Positions 13,026-62,803 of a stretch of DNA of 64,000 nt are shown here, in pieces. Source of the stretch: a virus. The DNA is taken from positions 1 to 64,000 of the IMG/VR virus record IMGVR_UViG_3300030202_002990; one strand, written 5' to 3'. Made by a program: the position numbers and the translations under genes. The notes below the pieces were generated by a model that saw nothing but the letters and a program-made list of their open reading frames with translations, ran no database searches and was not told the DNA's origin. Within the stretch, counting starts at the first letter, position 1, and every line of letters starts with the position of its first letter.

Positions 13026-13412
13026 CTATTTAAAAATCTTGCTCCATTTTCTTCTGTATTCTTTTTGTGCCCACTTTTCAGCTAATTCTTCCCACTTGTT
13101 GTCATCGTGTGGGTCTCTACCTTGGTGGACTGCCATATTACCAGCTTGATTGTATTTCTTGACGAACTTTCTAACACCCAATCTTTGTGCATCTAAAGCA
13201 TGTTTGATTTCGTGTAATACAGAAATAATGAATTCTTTAACATTTGGATAGGAACGATTTAATAATATGGTATCTTTTTCAGGTATGTAATCACCATAGT
13301 CGTGTTTAGCACCAAACTTTACCTTACTTTTTAACTTGTACTTTTTTACAAGTGCATTTGCAGTTTGTAAGTAATCAATCCGTTCTAATAGTAATTGTGA
13401 TAATTTAATCAT
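13026..13412 (-). CDS. HExxH metallopeptidase-like protein with candidate capsid-targeting N-terminus
   Basis: 128 residues. HEIKH (67-71) is a zincin active-site motif, with downstream glutamates at 108-112 that could supply the third ligand. The N-terminus MIKLSQLLLE matches the decapeptide shared with the next three genes. If this is a capsid-targeting sequence cut after the Glu, the mature enzyme would be packaged and injected. It may also act in the cytoplasm. The start overlaps the upstream stop by 8 nt. Protease activity is predicted only from the motif. Confidence 0.7.
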   Translation of the reverse strand: MIKLSQLLLERIDYLQTANALVKKYKLKSKVKFGAKHDYGDYIPEKDTILLNRSYPNVKEFIISVLHEIKHALDAQRLGVRKFVKKYNQAGNMAVHQGRDPHDDNKWEELAEKWAQKEYRRKWSKIFK

Positions 13413-13758
13413 CTAAAATATCCGATATCTCATAATTTGTTGAATAATCCTCACTACCATACTTATCCCAACTTCCAACATCCTCTTGGAAATTATCGTA
13501 CTTGACACCAGTATTCTTCACTTTTTTAATCACTTGAATTCGTTGTTGGGACTTATCGTTCTTGTCATAAATATTACCTGCCTTTGGAAAACTCCATTGA
13601 ACATAGCCACCTTTTTCAAACCAAGGCTCAGGTTTGTTAGATTTGATACCTAACTTTCTAACCTTTCCTTTTGGTAGGAAACCTGTATCAGGTTCACCAG
13701 CATCATTGTAGGCTGAATTTAAACTGGTTTCTCTGAGTAAGTCCATAAGTTTAATCAT
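13405..13758 (-). CDS. Hypothetical protein with candidate capsid-targeting N-terminus
   Basis: 117 residues starting MIKLMDLLRE, then a Gly/Asp/Lys-rich soluble body with no recognised domain. It is the second of four adjacent genes with the same N-terminal decapeptide pattern. A packaged internal protein is a reasonable guess. Confidence 0.7.
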   Translation of the reverse strand: MIKLMDLLRETSLNSAYNDAGEPDTGFLPKGKVRKLGIKSNKPEPWFEKGGYVQWSFPKAGNIYDKNDKSQQRIQVIKKVKNTGVKYDNFQEDVGSWDKYGSEDYSTNYEISDILDD

Positions 13759-14684
13759 TAAATAGTTATCTCACCTTCTCGTTTTAAATACCACTTACGA
13801 AATTGTGCAGGTGTTCCAATGGTTATCTTACTCTCAGGTACATACTTTAATAATTCTTTCTTGTGTGCTATTTCTTCATAATCAGTACCCGTATATGAAT
13901 CTTTTTGAAAATAATAATCATCCCAAACCCTTTTCAATACAAATACATCTATTACCTTAGTGTTGTAAACAATTATTTCGTTCCACCAAGCTGATGTTTC
14001 TTTAGATGGATGTGTAATGCTTTTCTTAACATCATCTTTATGCTTCTTTAATAGTTTATTGGTGGTATCGATATATTTTTTTATTTGTTTTTGAGCGTAT
14101 GGGCCTAAGTTCTGTCTAATAATTTTCATCTGTTCAGTATATCTTAAATCTTCATACTTAGGGTCATTTTCAACCTCATCTTGAATCTTTCGTTCTAAAC
14201 TTCTCCATGAATCATAATCGTGTAATTTTGCCTTTTTAATGGCAGTCTTTACAATCATATGGTCTCCATCAAATATATGAAACCCCCTTACCCATCTTCT
14301 ACCAGTTCTATCGGGTACCGTATCAAAATCCATATACTTTCGTGCTAACAACTCACCCGATACATGAAATATAACACCACCACTTTTCGTTTGAACACCA
14401 CGACCTTTCGCTAACGGAGAGGATTTATTTGCCTTGGTAAATGTAGAGATTGATTTTTTCTTACCCAATACATCCTTTAAGGTTTTTATATAACTCGGTC
14501 CTGTAACATGAAATGAGTTTATCGGTATCTTACCAATCACCTTTTCCATTGTCTTTGGGTAAAGTGGAACATAGTCTTGTGTGAGTGTCCAAGATAGGGC
14601 ATCCTTTGTGTGTGCTGGATACCATTCGTCTCTTAACCTACCCAAGTAAGTACTTTCGTTCAGTAAGTCCTTCAACTTAATCAT
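13758..14684 (-). CDS. Hypothetical 308-aa protein with candidate capsid-targeting N-terminus
   Basis: Starts MIKLKDLLNE, then a soluble body rich in Lys and Tyr. A central 'FHVSGELLARKYMDFDTVPDR' region is followed by 'RRWVRGFHIFDG' and a charged, helix-rich C-terminal half. I do not recognise the family. The start sits next to the preceding stop (4-nt overlap at 14681-14684). Confidence 0.75.
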   Translation of the reverse strand: MIKLKDLLNESTYLGRLRDEWYPAHTKDALSWTLTQDYVPLYPKTMEKVIGKIPINSFHVTGPSYIKTLKDVLGKKKSISTFTKANKSSPLAKGRGVQTKSGGVIFHVSGELLARKYMDFDTVPDRTGRRWVRGFHIFDGDHMIVKTAIKKAKLHDYDSWRSLERKIQDEVENDPKYEDLRYTEQMKIIRQNLGPYAQKQIKKYIDTTNKLLKKHKDDVKKSITHPSKETSAWWNEIIVYNTKVIDVFVLKRVWDDYYFQKDSYTGTDYEEIAHKKELLKYVPESKITIGTPAQFRKWYLKREGEITI

Positions 14685-14983
14685 ATCAAATCTTCTATCT
14701 GTTCTTCTATTTTTTTATGTAATATTTTTAGTTCTTTTAAACCTTTTTTAATCATAGCTGGTTTCTCAGCGTTTACACCTTTAAATACCTTACCCATATT
14801 GACACTCCAACTCTGACCCCAAATTTTCAACATAAGAAATCCTTTCTTAGTATCACTCATTGGTGCTTCATTTTGTATTTGTTTTGGTGTTTTAAAAGGC
14901 GGGTTATCCTTTTCGGTATAAATTTTACCCAACACTAATTTATTATCAGACCACTCTTTGAGTAAATCTTTTAGTTTTACCAC
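14681..14983 (-). CDS. Hypothetical 100-aa protein with candidate capsid-targeting N-terminus
   Basis: Starts (GTG) MVKLKDLLKE, matching the pattern of its three downstream neighbours. The remainder is Lys-rich with a C-terminal amphipathic helix (KKGLKELKILHKKIEEQIED). It overlaps the 3' end of the upstream basic protein gene by 7 nt. Confidence 0.7.
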   Translation of the reverse strand: MVKLKDLLKEWSDNKLVLGKIYTEKDNPPFKTPKQIQNEAPMSDTKKGFLMLKIWGQSWSVNMGKVFKGVNAEKPAMIKKGLKELKILHKKIEEQIEDLI

Positions 14984-16644
14984 TTACGACAACTCCAATA
15001 ACGGGCTTTATGTCTTGGCCCTGGTGAATCACAATTATGTCTTGCTCTAAAATTAGCTCTAGCTTTAGGATTAGATTTCCTAATTCTCATAGTTCCACCT
15101 TTGGCATCTCCACCTTGTCCAAAGTTTACCTTTACGACATTACCTTTTGGATTTTTAACATATACTTTAAATTTCTTTGAGTCTCCTTGCATCGGTTTTC
15201 CAAGTTTAACCTTACGACCTTGATACTCAGCTTCTACCAACCCAGTCATGGTGTATCCCCAAGAACCATCTTCCATCCATAAATCATAAGACTCGTTTAA
15301 CTCATCATCGTGTAATGGTTTTACACTTATACCAGGATAACCTTCCTTCTTTTTCTTCTTTTTACCCTTTTCTTCATATCCACTAGCAAATGCTGCTCGT
15401 CTCTGAGCGTCACTTGAGAATCCTTCCTTCACACCTTCTTTCTTAGATTCGGAAATTTGTATTCTTTTTTGAATATTTGTCTCAAAAGTTTTGTATGCTG
15501 TATCAATATCTGATAATACTTTATCAAAAATAGATTTGTTCAATGATTTTATTTTAACAACATTTGATTTTACTTTTTTCAAACCTTTAATCATTTCTTT
15601 TTTATCTTTAACTTGATAATAGGTATCTACATCCATTACATCACTCATCATTTTTTCTATTTTATTGTTATGTTTAATACCAAAACTTAAATCTGCCGTA
15701 TCACCTTCTAATGCATTAAGTAATTTATCTGTAAATTTTTCCATACTCATTTTTAATTCATTTAGTTTAACTTCATCTACGGATTCTTTTTTAGATTTAT
15801 TACCCCAATTCTTAGCACCTACCTTACGACACTTTACTAATGCTCCACTTGCATATGCTGATGGCCATACATCATAACGAGCTTTGACCTTGTGATAACA
15901 GGCATCTTTTTTACCTGCCTTCTCATCAAATTGTTCTTCGGTCATCATTTGAGATTCACGAATTTTTTTGATTTCAGTACGAATCAGATTTCTAATCATG
16001 TTTTCAACTTTATCACTTTTCATAATACTCTCCTCTTGGTCTTTACCCTTTTTAAATCTGTGTTCTCCATCAGGATTATTCTGTGGAACATTCCCAACAT
16101 TTCTTAAATAATTTGGTGGATTCAACATTTCCTTTTTAATAAATCTTTTTACTAATTGTAAAGCTCTTTTGTGTAAAGGGTCTTTTTTATTCTTAAGAGC
16201 AGTACCGACCTTCTTAGTTTTAGTTAATTGTTTCTTCAACAATTGATTATAAGCTTGGGGATTTACTACTGCCATATTTGGTACTAATTCATTAATTTCC
16301 ATATGTTCTCTCTTTTTTCTCCCTTGACAATGAGCCTTTTGACTAAACCCCTTTGGGTTATTACAATCAATAGACTTTTTATATTTTTTACTCCATCCCT
16401 CTTCTACATTTTTATCATAATAGTCTTTGGGATGAAATTTCATGTGAACTACCTTACCAGCTTTAGCGACACTCTTACCATCGACTATGATTTCTACTGG
16501 ATATGGTTTATCAGGTTTGTTCAACCAATATGCCATTTTGTATCCACCTTTGTCGAGTAGTTTCATCAGAACACCTCTCTTGTATTCCTTGTCTTCAGCT
16601 TGAAGTACTTTTAATTCTCCTCTTGGTAGTATTAAATCAGCCAT
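14977..16644 (-). CDS. Basic multi-module phage protein (Cys-motif modules)
   Basis: 555 residues, strongly basic and assembled from separate modules. Residues about 80-115 contain 'WSKKYKKSIDCNNPKGFSQK' and 'HCQGRKKR'. Residues about 245-290 contain 'DACYHKVKARYDVWPSAYAS', a motif I recall from a DUF family (DUF5872-like) in marine phages and giant viruses. The C-terminus carries 'RKSNPKARANFRARHNCDS' and a terminal WSCRKW. Between them are helical, charged linkers. High Lys/Arg content and the location next to candidate internal head proteins suggest a nucleic-acid-binding virion component. This is inference. Confidence 0.75.
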   Translation of the reverse strand: MADLILPRGELKVLQAEDKEYKRGVLMKLLDKGGYKMAYWLNKPDKPYPVEIIVDGKSVAKAGKVVHMKFHPKDYYDKNVEEGWSKKYKKSIDCNNPKGFSQKAHCQGRKKREHMEINELVPNMAVVNPQAYNQLLKKQLTKTKKVGTALKNKKDPLHKRALQLVKRFIKKEMLNPPNYLRNVGNVPQNNPDGEHRFKKGKDQEESIMKSDKVENMIRNLIRTEIKKIRESQMMTEEQFDEKAGKKDACYHKVKARYDVWPSAYASGALVKCRKVGAKNWGNKSKKESVDEVKLNELKMSMEKFTDKLLNALEGDTADLSFGIKHNNKIEKMMSDVMDVDTYYQVKDKKEMIKGLKKVKSNVVKIKSLNKSIFDKVLSDIDTAYKTFETNIQKRIQISESKKEGVKEGFSSDAQRRAAFASGYEEKGKKKKKKEGYPGISVKPLHDDELNESYDLWMEDGSWGYTMTGLVEAEYQGRKVKLGKPMQGDSKKFKVYVKNPKGNVVKVNFGQGGDAKGGTMRIRKSNPKARANFRARHNCDSPGPRHKARYWSCRKW

Positions 16645-17015
16645 TACTTCTTAGGTTTGGTTGATACATAAATTGGTTTCTTACCTTGTCCTGCAGATTG
16701 TTTACCACCTCTTCCAGCTTTATTTTGTGCTGACCTCTTCCTACGAGTAGCACTAGCTTTTTGTTTCTTTGTCATACCTGCAGCTTTAGACTTTGGAACA
16801 CATTTAGCATATCCTCTTTTCTTTCCACTTGAACCACATGGTGGATGTCCACCACCTTTTTTCTTCTTACCGATGTTTACCCATTTATCTTTAAACCACT
16901 TTCGTAAGTTTTCGTGGACAGGTAAACCACACTCGATACATAAGTTATCAAGAAGTTTATGTGTCTGTTCTGTAGTTAATTTTTTTAGTATTTCGTTAAG
17001 TTTAGTCATCTGCAT
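16644..17015 (-). CDS. Small basic Cys-motif protein
   Basis: 123 residues. The N-terminal helix includes CIECGLP. It is followed by 'WFKDKWVNIGKKKKGGG', HPPCG and 'RGYAKCVPKSKAAG', then a Lys/Arg/Gly-rich tail (TRRKRSAQNKAGRGGKQ). The combination resembles small basic proteins (DUF6321-like) of aquatic phages. DNA or RNA binding is likely from composition. The stop abuts the start of the multi-module protein, and the start overlaps the end of the upstream membrane protein gene. Confidence 0.72.
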   Translation of the reverse strand: MQMTKLNEILKKLTTEQTHKLLDNLCIECGLPVHENLRKWFKDKWVNIGKKKKGGGHPPCGSSGKKRGYAKCVPKSKAAGMTKKQKASATRRKRSAQNKAGRGGKQSAGQGKKPIYVSTKPKK

Positions 17016-17322
17016 GTTCTAATAATTTAACATCATCTTCAGCGTTGTTGAACCAAAAGTCAATTACCTTGGCAAATGAACCAACGAATCCACCCAACAT
17101 CAGTAGTAATATTTCTTTCCATCCACTCTGAACATCTACACCATTACTCATAAAGTAAATCATAAGAGCAAGAATTGTAGAGAAAAGTGCTACTACAGAT
17201 ATACTAATATACCATTTCTTGTTCTGTCTAAACTTTATGATATCAACTAATTGTTGATTGATAGCATGTTTTTGGTCTTGTATATGGTAGTCTTCTTTAA
17301 CTACTTTTCTTAATTCAGCCAT
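17002..17322 (-). CDS. Small two-TM membrane protein
   Basis: 106 residues with two predicted membrane segments, 'WYISISVVALFSTILALMIY' and 'ILLLMLGGFVGSFAKVIDFW', flanked by charged N- and C-termini. Position between a holin and a virion protein makes a lysis accessory (second holin or antiholin) possible. GGAG precedes the ATG, and a T4-late-like TATAAATA lies at 17340-17347 on this strand. Confidence 0.72.
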   Translation of the reverse strand: MAELRKVVKEDYHIQDQKHAINQQLVDIIKFRQNKKWYISISVVALFSTILALMIYFMSNGVDVQSGWKEILLLMLGGFVGSFAKVIDFWFNNAEDDVKLLEHADD

Positions 17323-17470: not shown

Positions 17471-17896
17471 TTATTTTGCTACTTGTTTAACCTTTTCGAT
17501 TGAACGACCAGCAAAGTATGCTGCGTAAACTGTCATTAATAATGTTTGATACACAGGAACATATGCTGCTCCTATTGTAAATGCCTGTTCACCTATTTTT
17601 AAGTTTCCATCAAATATACTTAAAACGGTAAATATAGCAGTTAAAAACACCAATGTTAATGGTCTGATATTTTTACTCAACCAACTTCCATGTTTCATAT
17701 CAGCTTCCCAACGAGCAGATACTTGAGCTTGTGCTGCTTGTTCGGCTGTTGCTAAAATTTGTGTAATTTTTTGTCTGGCTTCTTCCTTTTCTTCTCCTGA
17801 AGTATGTAAGTTATCTATGATATTCCCTACATCTTTTATTGTATCACCACCTAATAAACTACCTGCTCCTTTGGCGATTGTACTTAGTAACCCCAT
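17471..17896 (-). CDS. Holin, 3TM gene-transfer-release type
   Basis: 141 residues. A helical N-terminal half (KEEARQKITQILATAEQAAQ) leads to 'HGSWLSKNIRPLTLVFLT', the conserved entry to the first TM segment of GTA-type/3TM holins. Hydrophobic stretches follow at about 85-103 and 110-130. Such proteins permeabilise the inner membrane at the end of infection. AGGAG is well placed before the ATG. No endolysin is next to it. Confidence 0.75.
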   Translation of the reverse strand: MGLLSTIAKGAGSLLGGDTIKDVGNIIDNLHTSGEEKEEARQKITQILATAEQAAQAQVSARWEADMKHGSWLSKNIRPLTLVFLTAIFTVLSIFDGNLKIGEQAFTIGAAYVPVYQTLLMTVYAAYFAGRSIEKVKQVAK

Positions 17897-30836: not shown

Positions 30837-31162
30837 AATTCTTCAAATTCTCGATTAAGTATATCATTCCATACTGGGTCGGTAGAATAGACAGTTGTTT
30901 TTTTAGAAATTTTAATTAGTTGGTCTTCTTCTTCTAAGTTTTTTCCTTCCTCAAATGGATCCTCAACTGCTATAAAAACACCAGCATCATTTCTTAAAGG
31001 TGGTGTTGCTTCGTTGATAATTATTTGGTCGTTTTCAGTAACCACTACGCCCCCACTCAACTTTCGTCTCTGTTCTAATTCATTAAGATATGTTTGCCTA
31101 TCTTGTTCTCTTAACTTTTGATAGAATTCACTTTTTTGTAATTCTTCTTTTGTTAAAGGCAT
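30833..31162 (-). CDS. Hypothetical protein in tail operon
   Basis: 109 residues. The helical N-terminus (KEELQKSEFYQKLREQDRQ) is followed by a 'GGVVVTENDQIIINEATPPL' strand-rich part and an acidic C-terminus. Both ends overlap neighbouring genes. No family recognised. Confidence 0.68.
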   Translation of the reverse strand: MPLTKEELQKSEFYQKLREQDRQTYLNELEQRRKLSGGVVVTENDQIIINEATPPLRNDAGVFIAVEDPFEEGKNLEEEDQLIKISKKTTVYSTDPVWNDILNREFEEL

Positions 31163-31464
31163 TAATCCATCTCCAAACCAAAAAATTCATAATTCTTTTT
31201 AATATATTTATTCCATTCTGCAGGAACTTCACTTTCCTCAAAGATTGCCTCTACTGGACATTCGGGTTCACAGGCTCCACAATCAATACACTCATCAGGA
31301 TTTATGTAAAGTGAATCAGTTTCTTTTGGTATAAATCCATCTACTTTTGCCTCTTCACCACTTCCCTCAACATCATATGGGCCATGGATACAATCTACAG
31401 GACAAACCTCTACACATGCTGTATCACAAGTTCCAACACAAGGTTCAGCTATAATATATGACAT
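31162..31464 (-). CDS. Bacterial-type two-cluster ferredoxin
   Basis: 100 residues with nine Cys at 9, 13, 17, 21, 25 and 59, 62, 65, 69. The second site [12 protein letters not shown] is a classical [4Fe-4S] motif. The first ('[17 protein letters not shown]') resembles the 7Fe/8Fe ferredoxins of aerobic and FCB-group bacteria. The C-terminal extension ([19 protein letters not shown]) is also typical of those. It should carry electrons in the cytoplasm. It lies inside the tail operon with its own GGAG site. Acquisition from a host is likely. Confidence 0.9.
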
Positions 31465-40995: not shown

Positions 40996-41442
40996 TTATT
41001 GTGCTATATATCTAATTGGTTCCTCAGATAATTCAAATGATGTAGAATCATATGTATAATAATAAATTTCATCGTCACGCCTGTGATGAAAGATAGCAGG
41101 TTCTTCAGCATCAATCAAACTAAACTGCCATTCGTTATCCTCATCAGGTACACCCAATGTTAAATTTATCTTGATATTACGAGTTCTACCCATGACTGTG
41201 AGTGGATTATAAGGCCATGATTCATTTCCAGTTTCGATTAGCTTATCACTTGCGTAAGTTTCACACCCTGCCCATATTGTATCTACAGTCGTCTTTTCAG
41301 CTGATACTGCTGCTGAGTTTAAAACAGATGTCATCTTAGGGACAGCCACTGCTGATAATATTCCTAAGATGACCATAACCATTACTAATTCTACTAAAGA
41401 AAAACCTTCATTCATTTTCTCTTTCAGTATTTTTTTTATCAT
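40996..41442 (-). CDS. Type IV/type II prepilin-like protein A
   Basis: 148 residues. Leader 'MIKKILKEKMNEG', then 'FSLVELVMVMVILGILSAVA', i.e. a class III prepilin signal cleaved after Gly13 with Glu5 conserved. The globular part has 'ESWPYNPLTVMG', 'DEDNEWQFSL' and 'HHRRDDEIYYYTYDS', shared with the next two gene products. Processing would need a host prepilin peptidase; none is encoded here. Ends 3 nt before the start of the downstream membrane protein gene. Confidence 0.9.
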   Translation of the reverse strand: MIKKILKEKMNEGFSLVELVMVMVILGILSAVAVPKMTSVLNSAAVSAEKTTVDTIWAGCETYASDKLIETGNESWPYNPLTVMGRTRNIKINLTLGVPDEDNEWQFSLIDAEEPAIFHHRRDDEIYYYTYDSTSFELSEEPIRYIAQ

Positions 41443-41444
41443 TT

Positions 41445-41915
41445 TTATTGTCCTTCCAAATCTCGTCTATATACAACTTGATTTGGTTGATATGGTGGAT
41501 TGGAATATCCAATCTCACCCGTTGATGAATTATAAGTCCAAACTGCTAAACTATCTTCTTTCCTACGATGAACTATTGAATTTTTAAAATCATTACTTGC
41601 TTCACCAGTAAAAATCCAATCACTATCGTTCATCTCTACCATCAAAGTGGTATTTGATTTGTCGTAGGATTGTGGTACTTTATTAAGTGCGTCAAATGGA
41701 TTGTTTGGCCACTCTTGGACACCATTATCGATAAACTCTTCTTGACTATAAGTATCTAAAGCAGCGACCAAATTAATCAAAACTCCTTGTTCGGAAGCTG
41801 CTTCGGATTGTCGGACAATATTTGTAAATCTCGGTATCGAAACTGCGGCTAAAATTCCAATGATTACCATTACCATAATCAGTTCGACTAAGGTAAAACC
41901 ATTCTTTCTATTCAC
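41445..41915 (-). CDS. Type IV/type II prepilin-like protein B
   Basis: 156 residues. Cleavage after Gly6 (MNRKNG), then 'FTLVELIMVMVIIGILAAVS'. The globular part repeats the family pattern: 'EWPNNPFDALNKVPQSYD', 'DWIFTGEASND', 'HRRKEDSLAVWTYNS'. Paralogue of A and C, pointing to gene duplication in situ. Overlaps C by 8 nt. Confidence 0.9.
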   Translation of the reverse strand: MNRKNGFTLVELIMVMVIIGILAAVSIPRFTNIVRQSEAASEQGVLINLVAALDTYSQEEFIDNGVQEWPNNPFDALNKVPQSYDKSNTTLMVEMNDSDWIFTGEASNDFKNSIVHRRKEDSLAVWTYNSSTGEIGYSNPPYQPNQVVYRRDLEGQ

Positions 41916-42357
41916 TTGACAGACTTTCTCGGTTTCCTAAGAATCCAGTAGTGTCTGCATCTGTTCCTGTGTTTACTCCTGCGTCATACTCCCACTTAAA
42001 CCTTGAGTTGTCTGAGCGTTGATGAGTAATGTAAGCTGGGTCACCATCTACAAATGTCCACTCGTTATCTGTGTCGGCGTTTGTACCATCATCAGTATAA
42101 GTTTGTGGTTTGTCTTTAAGTGCGTCAAAGGGATTATCTGGCCATATAGCTCTTCCACTATCTATGAGTTTATGAACTCCATAGTTTTCGAGTGCTACAC
42201 CAATATTACTGACGACAGCATCTTCAGAAGCTTCTTCAGCTTTTGTAATGGTCTCCAAGTATCTTGGGATAGCGACAGCTGATAATATACCTAATATTAT
42301 CATTACCATGATTAATTCAATCAAGGTAAATCCGTCTTGGTTATTTAGTTTCTTCAT
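41908..42357 (-). CDS. Type IV/type II prepilin-like protein C
   Basis: 149 residues. Cleavage after Gly9 (MKKLNNQDG), then 'FTLIELIMVMIILGILSAVA'. Globular motifs 'AIWPDNPFDALKDKPQTY', 'DNEWTFVDG' and 'HQRSDNSRFKWEYD' align with A and B. AAAGGACAAG precedes the ATG. Confidence 0.9.
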   Translation of the reverse strand: MKKLNNQDGFTLIELIMVMIILGILSAVAIPRYLETITKAEEASEDAVVSNIGVALENYGVHKLIDSGRAIWPDNPFDALKDKPQTYTDDGTNADTDNEWTFVDGDPAYITHQRSDNSRFKWEYDAGVNTGTDADTTGFLGNRESLSSE

Positions 42358-42388: not shown

Positions 42389-43057
42389 TTAAGGTACTAA
42401 AGTTTTATGTAGTTTAGATGGGTTCTCAGTATCTATCACGACAAGAACAGGTGCCTGTGCTGATGTACCACTACCACTTCCTGGTATAATTAGGTAAGCG
42501 TATGAACCATCCTGAAATGGTGAGGTTAAACCATTGTTACCAAAATCTTGTTTGAAGTCAAGAGCACCAATTTCAGAGTTACCATCGTAACCAACTGATG
42601 TTTCAAGACTCATCCAATCGTTTTGTAAAGCGTCATCATCATCGGAAGATGGTGAGAACACATATACGAATTCACTAAGGTCATCTGTATAAGATTCTTT
42701 TTGGTCAAGGATAGTTTCTACATATGCTTCAAGTGTTTCGTCTGTAGATGCATCTTCGGATAAATCAACACCACCAACGGCGACATCATACTTTTCTTGT
42801 CCTGGAAATCTTCCTTTTCCTTCTTCAGATAATGTTTGGTTATAAAAGTTGTTTGCTACAGTTAAGATTTTATCAATGTTTGCCATTGTCTTTTTCTCTT
42901 TAGCACCTGCACCAACTGCACCAAATTTTGGAGCGGCTGTTGTAGCTAATGTAGCCATCATTGCAGTAGTAACAGCGAATTCAGCTAGTGAATTACCATT
43001 AGTACTCTTGAGTTTTCTCATAAAAGATTTTACGAGTTTCTTTATTGTTTCGAACAT
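42389..43057 (-). CDS. Larger prepilin-like protein D
   Basis: 222 residues. A 21-residue basic leader ends in 'KLKSTNG', then NSLAEFAVTTAMMATLATTA: Glu at +5 and a hydrophobic stretch fit a divergent class III signal. The remainder is acidic and beta-rich with no similarity to A-C that I can see. It is the first gene of the pilin set and is preceded by AAGGAG and by a 220-nt regulatory gap. It could be the major subunit with A-C as minor ones, or the reverse. Confidence 0.72.
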   Translation of the reverse strand: MFETIKKLVKSFMRKLKSTNGNSLAEFAVTTAMMATLATTAAPKFGAVGAGAKEKKTMANIDKILTVANNFYNQTLSEEGKGRFPGQEKYDVAVGGVDLSEDASTDETLEAYVETILDQKESYTDDLSEFVYVFSPSSDDDDALQNDWMSLETSVGYDGNSEIGALDFKQDFGNNGLTSPFQDGSYAYLIIPGSGSGTSAQAPVLVVIDTENPSKLHKTLVP

Positions 43058-48751: not shown

Positions 48752-49279
48752 CTAATCCATTAAAAATATTTCTTGTGAGTCTATCAATGTAGACTCTATA
48801 CTCCAATATAATTTCATCCAACTACCACTACCCTTATTTTGCATTACTTTTACAGGTGTTAATGTGTTGTAGAAATAACCTAAACTATCAACCATAGAAA
48901 CTTTATCTGTTGTCCATCTCAATGTATCTACATTTACATCCATCGTATCTCTGTTACCAAAGTTATCATACCATATAGCTTTATTTCTTCTGTTTGGTAA
49001 TAATTTGTAATGTCCACTTGAATCATCCTCATCCCAATACATATTACTCCACCAATGAACAACTAATCTATCAACAGGTACACCATCTCCTGATTCTAAA
49101 TGTCCCCATATTGGTGCTGGTGTAATCCATAGATTGTCTTGTATTTCAATTCTATTTACTCTTAACATCGTTACGATTATATTGGCTTCATTTGGTTCTT
49201 CTATTCTATCATCACAAGTAACCGTTAATGTAGTTAATATCAGAACAATCCAAATTATTTTATTCAATTTATTCTCCAA
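48752..49279 (-). CDS. Lipoprotein of unknown function
   Basis: 175 residues. 'IIWIVLILTTLTVTC' then DDR is a lipoprotein signal with the Cys at residue 23. The mature part is beta-rich and has 'RNKAIWYDNFGNRDTMDVN', similar to a segment of the lipoprotein at 19789-20376, so the two are probably distant paralogues. Overlaps the IMP dehydrogenase gene end. Confidence 0.72.
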   Translation of the reverse strand: MENKLNKIIWIVLILTTLTVTCDDRIEEPNEANIIVTMLRVNRIEIQDNLWITPAPIWGHLESGDGVPVDRLVVHWWSNMYWDEDDSSGHYKLLPNRRNKAIWYDNFGNRDTMDVNVDTLRWTTDKVSMVDSLGYFYNTLTPVKVMQNKGSGSWMKLYWSIESTLIDSQEIFLMD

Positions 49280-50465
49280 TCAAATGTGGTCTCGCCTCTA
49301 ATTGTCCTGCACTTGTTACTTCTACAAACTCTACTTTACTATGAAACTCAGAAAGATTGTTAGCACCAACATAACTGAAACTGCTAGAAATTCCATCTTT
49401 AATATCTGATAATATTCTATAGACTTTCCCCTTATACGGTATAACTTTATGATTCCCTTCAACATTCTTATCATTTCCTTTTGAGTCCCTTGAGGCGGAA
49501 CCCCTATACTTTTTAAATAATTTTTCGTTAGGCCATTGTCCTTGTTTTTCTATTTGACCTGGACTTTCTTTGGTGCCCGAAAGTAACGAACCAACCATGA
49601 TGGTGTCAGCTCCACAACCAAGTCCTTTAGCCACATCACCCACATTCCGAATACCACCATCAGCAATGATAGGAATATCCCAATCGTCAGCAACGGAACA
49701 AACATCAATAAGAGTAGTAACCTGAGGTAATCCAACACCAGTCCTGATTCTTGTTTCACATAGTGAGCCGTTACCGATTCCCACTCTGATGGCGTCAGCA
49801 CCCTTTTCAGCCAGAAATCGTGCCCCATCACTTGTTGCGATGTTTCCTGCGACAACCTCGACATTCGATATTTTACTTTTGATTTTCTCAATGGCTTCTC
49901 CTACATTCTTATGATGTCCGTGTGCTACATCAATAAGTAGTACATTACAACCGTTTAAAACTAATTCTTTAGCCCTCTCTAAGTAGTCTCCCTTGACTCC
50001 AATAGCTGCACATAAGGGTCTTTTACTCCAATACTCTTCATCTTTCTTAGCCTCATCTGCAAACCATAGTAATTCTTCTAAATCTTCAAAATCAGATTTT
50101 GTTGGTGGATGGTTCCAAGACATTACACCTCTGTACCAATCTTCATATACTCTATGGTGGTCGGTTCTATCTTCATCCTTGTCGCCTATGTTATACCAAC
50201 TATCCCATTGTCTCCAAACTCTTTTCATTTGTTCGGTTTGTTTTTCAATACTTTGAAATCTATGTATAACACCAACACCGCCTTGGTCTAACATTTCAGA
50301 AGCCATCTTGTATTCTGTAACCGTATCCATAGGAGACGCCACTATTGGTACACTCATTGTTGTGTTTTTTGTAAACCTTGTAGAGAGGTCTATATCTTCA
50401 CGAGATAAAACTTCTGAGTATTTTGGGACGATGTTTACATCATCATATGTTAAATATTTTTTCAA
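49269..50465 (-). CDS. guaB: IMP dehydrogenase / GMP reductase family enzyme
   Basis: 398 residues. '[15 protein letters not shown]' and '[13 protein letters not shown]' open the TIM barrel. The catalytic loop is '[20 protein letters not shown]' (Cys236). '[16 protein letters not shown]' and the flap '[13 protein letters not shown]' follow. The CBS pair present in most bacterial GuaB is replaced by about 60 residues of unrelated charged sequence (85-148). It would divert IMP to XMP for guanine nucleotide supply; a GMP reductase function cannot be fully excluded. The start is TTG, directly after the upstream stop. Confidence 0.85.
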
Positions 50466-60129: not shown

Positions 60130-60324
60130 TTAAATGTCCGTAAATTCAGCATCGAGAATAGTTCTCACAAAGTAAAAATCATTACCATTTCTCAATACAG
60201 CATCGACATTCCAACATTGTTTCCAATATTCTGTACCCTTTTCATTAGTTGATTCTACGGATTGTACACCAATGCACTCATATAGGGTATCATTAACTTT
60301 TATTAATTTGTTAAATCTACCCAA
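60130..60324 (-). CDS. Hypothetical 64-aa protein
   Basis: 'MGRFNKLIKVNDTLYECIGV' onward, beta-rich with 'GNDFYFVRTILDAEF'. AGGAG precedes the ATG. No family recognised. Confidence 0.68.
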   Translation of the reverse strand: MGRFNKLIKVNDTLYECIGVQSVESTNEKGTEYWKQCWNVDAVLRNGNDFYFVRTILDAEFTDI

Positions 60325-60341
60325 TATAAGTTCTCCTATGG

Positions 60342-60425
60342 ATTAATGAGGCCACCCTTACGCTACACACTTTCCCGTTGCTTTGATTATATGTGAAAAG
60401 AACGGAAAAACACCTCCTCATTAAT
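60342..60425 (-). promoter_or_regulatory. Structured RNA element between hsp20 and the next gene
   Basis: ATTAATGAGG and CCTCATTAAT close an 84-nt domain with a perfect 10-bp outer stem. An inner stem TTTCCGTT/AACGGGAAA (one bulged G) is nested in it. It begins at the hsp20 stop codon and ends 17 nt before the next start. It could be a processing signal, attenuator or small RNA. Confidence 0.55.
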
Positions 60426-60898
60426 TATGAGATTTTTACTGAAGTCCTCTTTGGAAGTTCAGGTTCGGTTTTAGGAATATCAATGGATAGTAAACCATCT
60501 TTAAAAGATGCTTTAATATTATCTCCATCCAATAGTTCACCCAATTCGAATGAACGCTTAAATGATGAATGTTTTAATTCCCTACGAATAACCTTGGCTC
60601 CCTCATCATCAAACAAACCATGTTTGTCACCTGAGATAGTTAATACACCATCTTCGACTTCTACTGATAAGTCTTTTTTATCCAAACCAGGTATCTCTGC
60701 TACTACACCGATTTTATCATCGTATTCGTATACATTTACCTTTGGATATGCTGAACCTTGAAATGGTTTAACACCAACGGACTTGTTAATATCAGGAAAG
60801 TTACTTTCCACGATTTGGTCAAACATCCTATCAAATGGTGTTAAAAAAGAATCCCTATCGATTATAGGGAATGCACGATTTAAAACTACTTTAGTCAT
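60425..60898 (-). CDS. hsp20: Small heat-shock protein Hsp20
   Basis: 157 residues. Alpha-crystallin domain: 'NVYEYDDKIGVVAEIPGLDK', 'VEDGVLTISGDKHG' and 'ASFKDGLLSIDIPKTEPE' with a short tail. ATP-independent chaperone. hsp20 genes are common in cyanophages and other T4-like marine phages. AAGGAG precedes the ATG. The 149-nt upstream gap is extremely A/T-rich and includes TATAAT-like sequence near 60993. Confidence 0.95.
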   Translation of the reverse strand: MTKVVLNRAFPIIDRDSFLTPFDRMFDQIVESNFPDINKSVGVKPFQGSAYPKVNVYEYDDKIGVVAEIPGLDKKDLSVEVEDGVLTISGDKHGLFDDEGAKVIRRELKHSSFKRSFELGELLDGDNIKASFKDGLLSIDIPKTEPELPKRTSVKIS

Positions 60899-61047
60899 TT
60901 TGTTTCTCCTTGTTTTGTTTACTTTGTAGTCAAACTTGTATCCTCATTTGAGCGATACAAATATCGAGATACTCTACCACAATTGTGCGTATTATATCTC
61001 AATAATAATATATATATAATTAAATCATAAAAAACATATTTTTTTTG

Positions 61048-61827: not shown

Positions 61828-62127
61828 TTAACCTACTCTTAAATTTCTTAATCCAAGTACCTTTGCAATAATCATAATATCATCATCCCAAAGTAATTTT
61901 TCCATCTTATCGAAAATCTTATCAATTGTACTACGAGTCACACCTAAGTCAAGTGTAACACCATTGTGATAATAATTATCTGCTGGTTGACCTTTTACGA
62001 CATTTTGTACAACACTCTTCAGTACCTTATAATCTAAAAACGCTGGATAATCACTTCGTATATAATGTTTTGATTTGTCTCCCATTACAACGAATTTATC
62101 AAACTCTGACCATCTTTCTTTTTTCAC
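61828..62127 (-). CDS. Hypothetical 99-aa protein
   Basis: 'MKKERWSEFDKFVVMGDKSK', then helices with 'LGVTRSTIDKIFDKMEKLLW'. A DNA-binding helix-turn-helix is possible but not shown. Confidence 0.65.
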   Translation of the reverse strand: MKKERWSEFDKFVVMGDKSKHYIRSDYPAFLDYKVLKSVVQNVVKGQPADNYYHNGVTLDLGVTRSTIDKIFDKMEKLLWDDDIMIIAKVLGLRNLRVG

Positions 62128-62129
62128 TT

Positions 62130-62288
62130 CTAACCTCTATTTGTTTTTTTATTTTTTTTAAAATATATCTCATGTAGGCAATCTAAACATAATTGTCCAA
62201 CACCTTTGATATAACCTATTCTAAATTTTATATGTTCCCAAGTATCGTAGATACTATCTACTCCACAAGTTACACATTTGTCTTTCAT
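62130..62288 (-). CDS. 52-aa zinc-ribbon-like protein
   Basis: MKDKCVTCGVDSIYDTWEHI with CVTC (5-8) and CLDC (34-37). The two CxxC pairs suit one zinc ion. The start shares a base with the upstream stop. Confidence 0.66.
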   Translation of the reverse strand: MKDKCVTCGVDSIYDTWEHIKFRIGYIKGVGQLCLDCLHEIYFKKNKKTNRG

Positions 62289-62803
62289 TAAAAGAATTTA
62301 TTTATATTCGGTTCAAGTATAGTCTTGTCTTTGAATATCATATCGAATATTTCATCACCAAGTCCATCTGTTGAGTAGCTTGTAATTAAACCACTATCCA
62401 CCAACTTATCCAATTGAGACCAATACTTATCTTTTAGTCCATTATATATTAAATGTATTTCACAATTCGGAAATTTATTTCTAAAACATTGTGCCTTTAA
62501 TGCTATATCGGTTGCATCTTTTGATGCACAACCAGTAGATTTACAATCAAAGAATATCGGTACAACCTTATCATCTTGGAGAGTTTCAAAGACAAAATCC
62601 CAATGTACTGATTTATCTAAGTTTGAAAGTGGTATATCGTTTAGGTCGGAATAGTTAGCTGTATACTTAATTCCAACATCGGTGTTTCGATTTTTACCAT
62701 CGATACTCCAACCACTTTTATCTTCTACATAAACTCTAAGGTAATCTTCATTTACCTTACCTTGTGCACTTTCTTGTTTGAATGCGTGATTACCGTTCAT
62801 CAT
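62288..62803 (-). CDS. PD-(D/E)XK-like hypothetical protein
   Basis: 171 residues. 'VHWDFVFETLQDD' and 'VVPIFFDCKSTGCASKDATD' give Asp...Asp-x-Lys on consecutive strands, followed by 'LKAQCFRNKFPNCEIHLIYN', reminiscent of the nuclease fold. Could be a nuclease; the activity is not certain. Confidence 0.6.
   Translation of the reverse strand: MMNGNHAFKQESAQGKVNEDYLRVYVEDKSGWSIDGKNRNTDVGIKYTANYSDLNDIPLSNLDKSVHWDFVFETLQDDKVVPIFFDCKSTGCASKDATDIALKAQCFRNKFPNCEIHLIYNGLKDKYWSQLDKLVDSGLITSYSTDGLGDEIFDMIFKDKTILEPNINKFF

Follow-up and report, generated by a model that had tools for sequence, protein, structure and literature searches.

The capsid-targeting sequence of phage T4 has served to load foreign proteins into heads. 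In the T-even phages, the internal proteins were described as diverse defence proteins among which the capsid-targeting sequence alone is conserved (PMC3012670), and in T4 this sequence forms a short N-terminal propeptide on the diverse bodies of IPI-III and Alt, together with a protease of the gp21 family (PMC3012670, PMC9026906). IPIII is incorporated by virtue of its first 10 residues alone, among which positions 4 and 7 weigh most for targeting while processing depends on positions 8 and 10, the gp21 cut falling after L/I-X-E (PMC9026906); IPIII was also reported to be required on one E. coli strain (PMC9391042). The giant phages phiKZ and SPN3US also have a gp21-related protease, whose cuts in ejection proteins and in proteins of the inner head fall after Glu (PMC5694885, PMC9026906), their head propeptides being described as much longer than those of T4, several of them >100 residues. 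The N-terminus of DarB from phage P1 suffices to carry a foreign protein into the head, and the Dar proteins are reported to have no consensus in common (PMC9024508). Polyvalent MPTase-PolyVal proteins, in which a zincin metalloprotease with HExxH is fused to effectors, are thought to be injected, and one widespread group of them has an Asp three residues after HExxH (PMC5512222).

We analysed a 64,000-base window (bases 1-64000 of an 82,353-base IMG/VR record, the other 18 kb of which was also read), in which four adjacent genes share an N-terminal decapeptide tag. The preliminary description of this DNA had likened the tag to the signal of T4 internal proteins, and the likeness was borne out: T4 ipII and ipIII start with MKTYQEFIAE (the N-terminus of ipI being MKTFKEFTST), and the tag resembles the T4 sequence in its short N-terminal position on diverse bodies, in its key residues 4 and 7, and in an L/I-x-E site at residues 8-10. 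A short N-terminus common to different proteins, which marks the T4 type and there measures 10-19 residues, was found; its removal would follow by analogy. The tag differs from that of T4 in its letters (MIKLKDLLxE vs. MKTYQEFIAE), in its spread over at least 86 body families as opposed to a handful of bodies, in a candidate cargo in which some enzymes can be recognised and fusions of several domains have sites inside the chain, and in its occurrence in a distant T4-like clade, nearly all of which is uncultured. With 9-10 residues it also contrasts with the head propeptides of the giant phages, and, unlike the polyvalent proteins, most of the forms seen here are short stand-alone proteins or fusions a few hundred residues long, each with a tag or site of its own. 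What is new are therefore the other letters and the much larger cargo set, whereas a T4-type targeting propeptide with a T4-type site is known. The strings MIKLKDL, MIKLKDI, IKLKDLL and IKLKDIL were not found in the open PMC literature, and titles and abstracts of that literature yielded no account of an environmental-phage tag of this kind.

Distribution and conservation of the tag

The four genes, all on the minus strand and each an open reading frame (ORF) overlapping or abutting its neighbour, encode proteins of 128 aa (13026-13412; N-terminus MIKLSQLLLE), 117 aa (13405-13758; MIKLMDLLRE), 308 aa (13758-14684; MIKLKDLLNE) and 100 aa (14681-14983, with a GTG start; MVKLKDLLKE), the tags themselves occupying 13383-13412, 13729-13758, 14655-14684 and 14954-14983, respectively. 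As had been noticed at the outset, M-[IV]-K-L-x-[DQ]-L-L-x-E fits 4/4 of these N-termini while the bodies are unrelated, BLASTP among the four (residues 13 on) returning self matches only below E = 0.1. All four window tags have the gp21-type end L/I-x-E, and in the 128-aa protein the cut is predicted after Glu10, before RIDYLQ. A motif search of the rest of the genome, which the preliminary description had called for, located the 10-residue pattern at just these four N-termini in the 82,353-base record.

To place the tag beyond this record, 94 sources were assembled, namely the record itself, 8 related records, phage Mel-JY01, and loci L002-L085, of which 17 were fetched by relatives of the 308-aa protein and 67 by relatives of the 128-aa protein. 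A degenerate pattern was present at the first start codon of 66 of 3083 distinct ORFs (>=60 aa), as against a mean of 0.425 and a maximum of 2 when residues 2-25 were shuffled 200 times. When any start within the first 40 residues was allowed, 79 distinct ORFs carried the pattern, with bodies falling into 30 BLAST families; many of the loci having been obtained via two tagged proteins, the two largest families, 19 ORFs each, contain these baits, and 41 of the 79 ORFs in 28 families remained without them.

A body-blind scan of viral_contigs with a DNA pattern for MIKLK[DN][LI][LI]xE, which largely forces I2, K3, L4, K5, D/N6, hydrophobic residues at 7/8 and E10 and leaves residue 9 and those from 11 on free, revealed at least 120 stretches, as compared with 6 for the identical codons permuted, 5 of which have open frames of just 7-14 aa. 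Among the matches listed (139 in total, 133 distinct), 125 of the 133 lay <=40 codons after an upstream in-frame stop, that is, at gene starts, and 132 ORFs (>=40 aa) fell into at least 86 body families. In genome_contigs, covering 84,980 prokaryote species, the tag pattern occurred in 74 stretches with 79 matches, 25 of which head an ORF of >=50 aa near an upstream stop; several of these loci (e.g., L350, L354, L355, L357 and L358) look by eye to be phage-derived and binned with bacteria or archaea. Chance as the cause of the shared tag was ruled out by the shuffles, the permuted pattern and the prokaryote genomes. The metagenome-assembled genomes holding tagged-gene contigs were assigned to Flavobacteria (L350, L354, L355, L358) and Nitrosopelagicus (L357), a weak hint at hosts. 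Apart from uncultured phages, a single isolate, Microcystis phage Mel-JY01, has the tag, and nothing similar was present among the 14 N-termini examined in Pelagibacter phage HTVC008M.

In a profile of one sequence from each of the 30 families, in which residues 2-4, 7, 8 and 10 are partly forced by the search pattern, E10 and [LI]7 were both present in 30/30, and conservation ended at residue 10, the entropy being at least 3.45 bits from residue 11; positions 4, 7, 8 and 10 were conserved across the tagged families, again partly forced by the patterns. In 20 aligned homologues of the 308-aa protein, L4, L7 and E10 were invariant and were followed by a stretch of variable length and then the conserved body, and 17/17 loci of this family had the tag or a sequence close to it (MILLKDLINE, MQIIKLKDLLLE). 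Among 104 N-termini picked blind to residues 8-10, 77 had [LIVMF]xE at 8-10 and another 10 had [LIM]xE at 7-9, i.e., a 9-residue register; 17 had no site at 7-10, some being signal-peptide-like, which counts against the cleavage reading. The P3 residue of the site was V, M or F as well as the L/I of T4, which also counts against that reading.

A second, 9-residue tag, M[GS]KF[KR][KR][LIM]ME, was observed on 11 ORFs, every one of which overlaps a metalloprotease match (L030, L034, L037, L041, L044-L046, L052, L053, L060 and 81505-82332 of G006).

Predicted cargo and other genes of the window

The 128-aa protein is predicted to be a zincin-like metalloprotease and a packaged cargo. It has HEIKH at residues 67-71, and in the metalloprotease alignment the HExxH columns and E112 were invariant, with D74 conserved at >=90%. 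The protein itself scored under the Pfam cut-off for MPTase-PolyVal (14.7 vs. 27.5 bits), and 21 of its 31 homologues matched this family at E <= 0.01. Its model was matched best by metallopeptidases such as PprI/IrrE and CapP in Foldseek, these matches being weak (best E 0.0098); the HExxH with a downstream Glu and, on such matches, the zincin fold of MPTase-PolyVal were accordingly both found. A metalloprotease profile gave nothing useful against solved-structure sequences. For the 117-aa protein, Pfam and PHROG matches were absent; L030, L034 and L037 are examples of loci where a relative of its body is fused in front of the metalloprotease, with an EPDTGF...KPEPWF stretch in common.

The 308-aa protein, also a predicted packaged cargo, has a conserved body from about W21 and a fair AF2 model (mean pLDDT 78.7), in which residues 1-25 fall under pLDDT 50, as do residues 1-9 of the 128-aa protein. 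Foldseek detected no PDB fold match for it (best E 0.31), and for this reason an ADP-ribosyltransferase guess made from its sequence was dropped. Among 50,697 phage records, none from an isolate held a relative of the 308-aa or of the 128-aa protein. The 100-aa protein, likewise predicted to be packaged, has tagged homologues in L020 and L024.

Other tagged bodies include a Nudix protein, a zeta-toxin-like kinase, an RNase_T exonuclease, an M23 peptidase plus lysozyme and a weak HAD match, most of the others examined having no family match. The tagged M23 peptidase plus lysozyme need not act inside the host cell, which counts against the reading proposed below. Comparison with known defence models gave only a weak match, that of a Nudix protein to PDC-S07. 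Different tagged proteins at 2427-3260 of L140 and 3263-4045 of L017 match neighbouring parts of phrog_12810 (788 positions).

Elsewhere in the window, three adjacent genes at 40996-42357 (minus strand) match PF07963 above its cut-off, the N-terminal methylation motif of type IV pilins, which is unusual for a phage, and a fourth at 42389-43057 resembles these neighbours by eye with the Pfam match absent. The phage also encodes an IMP dehydrogenase/GMP reductase (49269-50465, minus), a ferredoxin (31162-31464, minus) and an Hsp20 (60425-60898, minus).

Cut-type sites outside the tag and the prohead protease

Sites of the same type were recognised in proteins of the head. The related MCPs carry [IV]-x-E-[AS] upstream of a GVALPL[VI]R stretch (7/7 by eye), at the place where T4 gp23 has FLTE-A, and in the TPYAF-type head-block proteins [LIVM]-x-E stands ahead of a conserved stretch in 13/13. 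The untagged 555-aa head-block protein of the window (14977-16644, minus strand) contains an internal LVE at residues 469-471 before AEYQGR and is predicted, from this conserved [LIVM]-x-E site, to be cut by the same protease. Glu precedes the AEYQGR-type stretch in 15 of 16 rows of its homologues, the 16th row being an unrelated match, and P3 is L, I, V or F in 12 of the 15 and M in three. A homologue 46.98% identical lies in the head block of the related record G002; the C-terminus of the 555-aa protein, RARHNCDSPGPRHKARYWSCRKW, is a Cys/His-rich end common to both.

In the metalloprotease homologues, [LIVMF]-x-E-[RE]-x-D was located at a near-fixed distance before HExxH, the site itself lying anywhere from residue 6 to 388. 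Removal of 15 duplicates, and of 8 loci left unscored because their HExxH pattern did not match, left 28 distinct fusions, 27 of which had the site before the metalloprotease domain, and 16 distinct lone forms, 12 of which had it. The site was absent in the coding frame of four lone homologues (L072, L075, L079, L081) and the fusion L082, which counts against the reading proposed below. Such a conserved site in mid-protein would fit cutting better than targeting; the conserved stretch before HExxH could also be the edge of the metalloprotease domain itself. In the untagged L072, L075 and L079, ILE is still encoded in frame directly before the start codon; this may be a relic, or a frameshift may fuse the gene to the one upstream.

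Peptidase_S77 (gp21-type) was detected in 7 of 26 related records and, for the matches listed, in 12 of 21 body-blind tagged records; it was also present in 1 of 3 control-pattern records, which counts against the link. The 82,353-base record itself has no S77, MCP or TerL match, another point against, so that the association with the protease is drawn from its relatives; those related records that hold a head module do encode a gp21-family protease. In the 9 of 21 body-blind tagged records without S77, the MCP match was absent in 9/9 and TerL in 8/9. Across 28 S77-less records there were 0 related MCPs, in a run without its own positive control, and 1 TerL, near a contig end, and family models found gp23 in 0/10 and terminase in 1/10 of such records, both being found in S77-bearing G005, G046 and G032. 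Because MCP and TerL are nearly always absent too, most S77-less records look like fragments without a head module. An exception is a record of 207029 bases (G041, the record of L205), in which a gene is tagged while models of S77, gp23, the related MCP and terminase all gave no match; it counts against a protease-linked tag.

The proposal that tags be sought near the prohead protease proved fruitful: across 8 protease-bearing genomes or contigs, the tag was carried by 14 of the 157 genes lying no more than 8 kb from the protease vs. 8 of 608 elsewhere (Fisher p 9.7e-6, the contigs being related and the genes not independent). In relatives, tagged genes sit among portal, protease and scaffold, where T4 keeps its core genes. 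A single block of G002 comprises four tagged or near-tagged small genes, the 555-aa homologue, protease, portal and terminase, then a 308-aa homologue, as well as genes resembling by eye those at 17471-17896 and 17002-17322 of the window. The isolate Mel-JY01 (PP395634), no mention of which was found in the open PMC literature, has the closest protease (61.8% identical) and an MCP with LISE-A, where the predicted cut would leave ANRTGTSAG. Its three tagged paralogues lie at 60-63 kb, far from its head block; in the proteins at 60276-60926 and 62056-62718, Glu10 is followed by IISDRVWH and TISDRVWH. In this phage, 0 of 21 genes within 8 kb of its protease are tagged, which counts against the association.

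Proposed function and alternatives

Sequence shows the tag with its modularity and protein-level conservation, the motif of the site, the clustering of tagged genes beside a protease that relatives encode, and the conserved sites at domain junctions. On these grounds we regard the decapeptide as very probably a propeptide for capsid targeting of the T4 type, which is lost by a cut after Glu10 and is shared by an interchangeable set of cargo proteins. Were it instead a docking helix that recruits to the prohead core and stays uncut, the Glu being part of the binding surface, its modelling as a short helix (H4-8, at low confidence) in both AF2 models would be accounted for. T4 IPIII with Asp10 is described as targeting yet unprocessed, so that targeting and cutting are separable (PMC9026906). 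This alternative is nevertheless improbable, as the Glu and the [L/I]-x-E spacing persist in the 9-residue variants shifted by one residue, the fusions keep their mid-protein site where an N-terminal tag is not needed, and the same site stands ahead of the mature part of the MCP. The recurrence of the [L/I]-x-E end in MCP and core proteins also argues against a general localisation or partner-binding helix (for a membrane, a replication compartment or a host factor) unrelated to heads, to which the tagged genes away from the protease and the remote position of those in Mel-JY01 would be suited. T4 ipI-III, however, lie away from gene 21 as well, and given the enrichment beside the protease and the placement that matches the T4 core genes, we find a role of this sort rather less credible still.

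A DNA element, such as a translation initiation signal or a recombination linker with the peptide as its by-product, is very hard to reconcile with codon usage. Among the body-blind matches listed, synonymous codons differ at all tag positions, with 6 Leu codons among the 84 Leu at position 4, ATA/ATT/ATC at position 2 and GAA/GAG at position 10. The tag Leu codons do lean to TTA (entropy 1.35 bits vs. 1.46-2.01 expected from the bodies), and those of Ile slightly so. Because this lean is mild and synonymous codons vary everywhere, it is the peptide and not the DNA that is conserved. Moreover, no shared block upstream of the tagged genes was seen by eye, and the register-shifted and MGKFKK variants preserve features of the protein rather than of the DNA; the codon variation thus led us to reject this explanation. 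Descent of the four genes from one duplicated ancestor, with the N-terminus as residual homology, would suit their adjacency and single orientation, but the absence of BLASTP similarity among their bodies led us to reject it, and the tag lies on bodies of several known families (Nudix, zeta-toxin-like kinase, exonuclease, M23 peptidase, zincin), which leaves this the most improbable of all.

For a capsid-targeting propeptide removed after Glu10, the following course can be envisaged, in which core binding, cutting and virion content are modelled on T4. The tagged proteins would be made late in infection, and their amphipathic N-terminus would bind the prohead core, Leu4 and Leu7 acting by analogy as residues 4 and 7 of T4 IPIII, so that they would be enclosed as the shell forms around the core. 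The S77 prohead protease would then cut after Glu10 at [L/I]-x-E and so remove the tag, and sites of this kind would also be cut in the capsid protein, in core proteins and in multi-domain cargo, with DNA packaging to follow. Once freed, the proteins may leave the head together with the DNA and be active early in the next host, where they would probably counter defence or reprogramme the cell. By this analogy, packaging and cleavage of the tagged proteins are likely; ejection into the host is plausible, a step that we infer more weakly.

A broader proposal, towards which we incline only slightly, is that this T4-like branch relies on a 9-10-residue label with its [L/I]-x-E site as the universal adaptor for cargo of the head, new genes joining the injected set merely by gaining the label, and multi-domain cargo being loaded under one label and cut into effectors in the head at repeated sites.

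The proteins that phages bring into a cell are difficult to determine, since virion proteomics depends on having the phage in culture. If the tag works as read here, the cargo of a large uncultured phage group could be listed from sequence, many candidate early anti-defence or takeover proteins would come to hand, including families with no fold match such as that of the 308-aa protein, and a second capsid-targeting sequence would be available for comparison with that of T4. Should the universal label hold as well, genomes would provide a readable list of injected proteins, comprising at least 86 families, most of them without known function.
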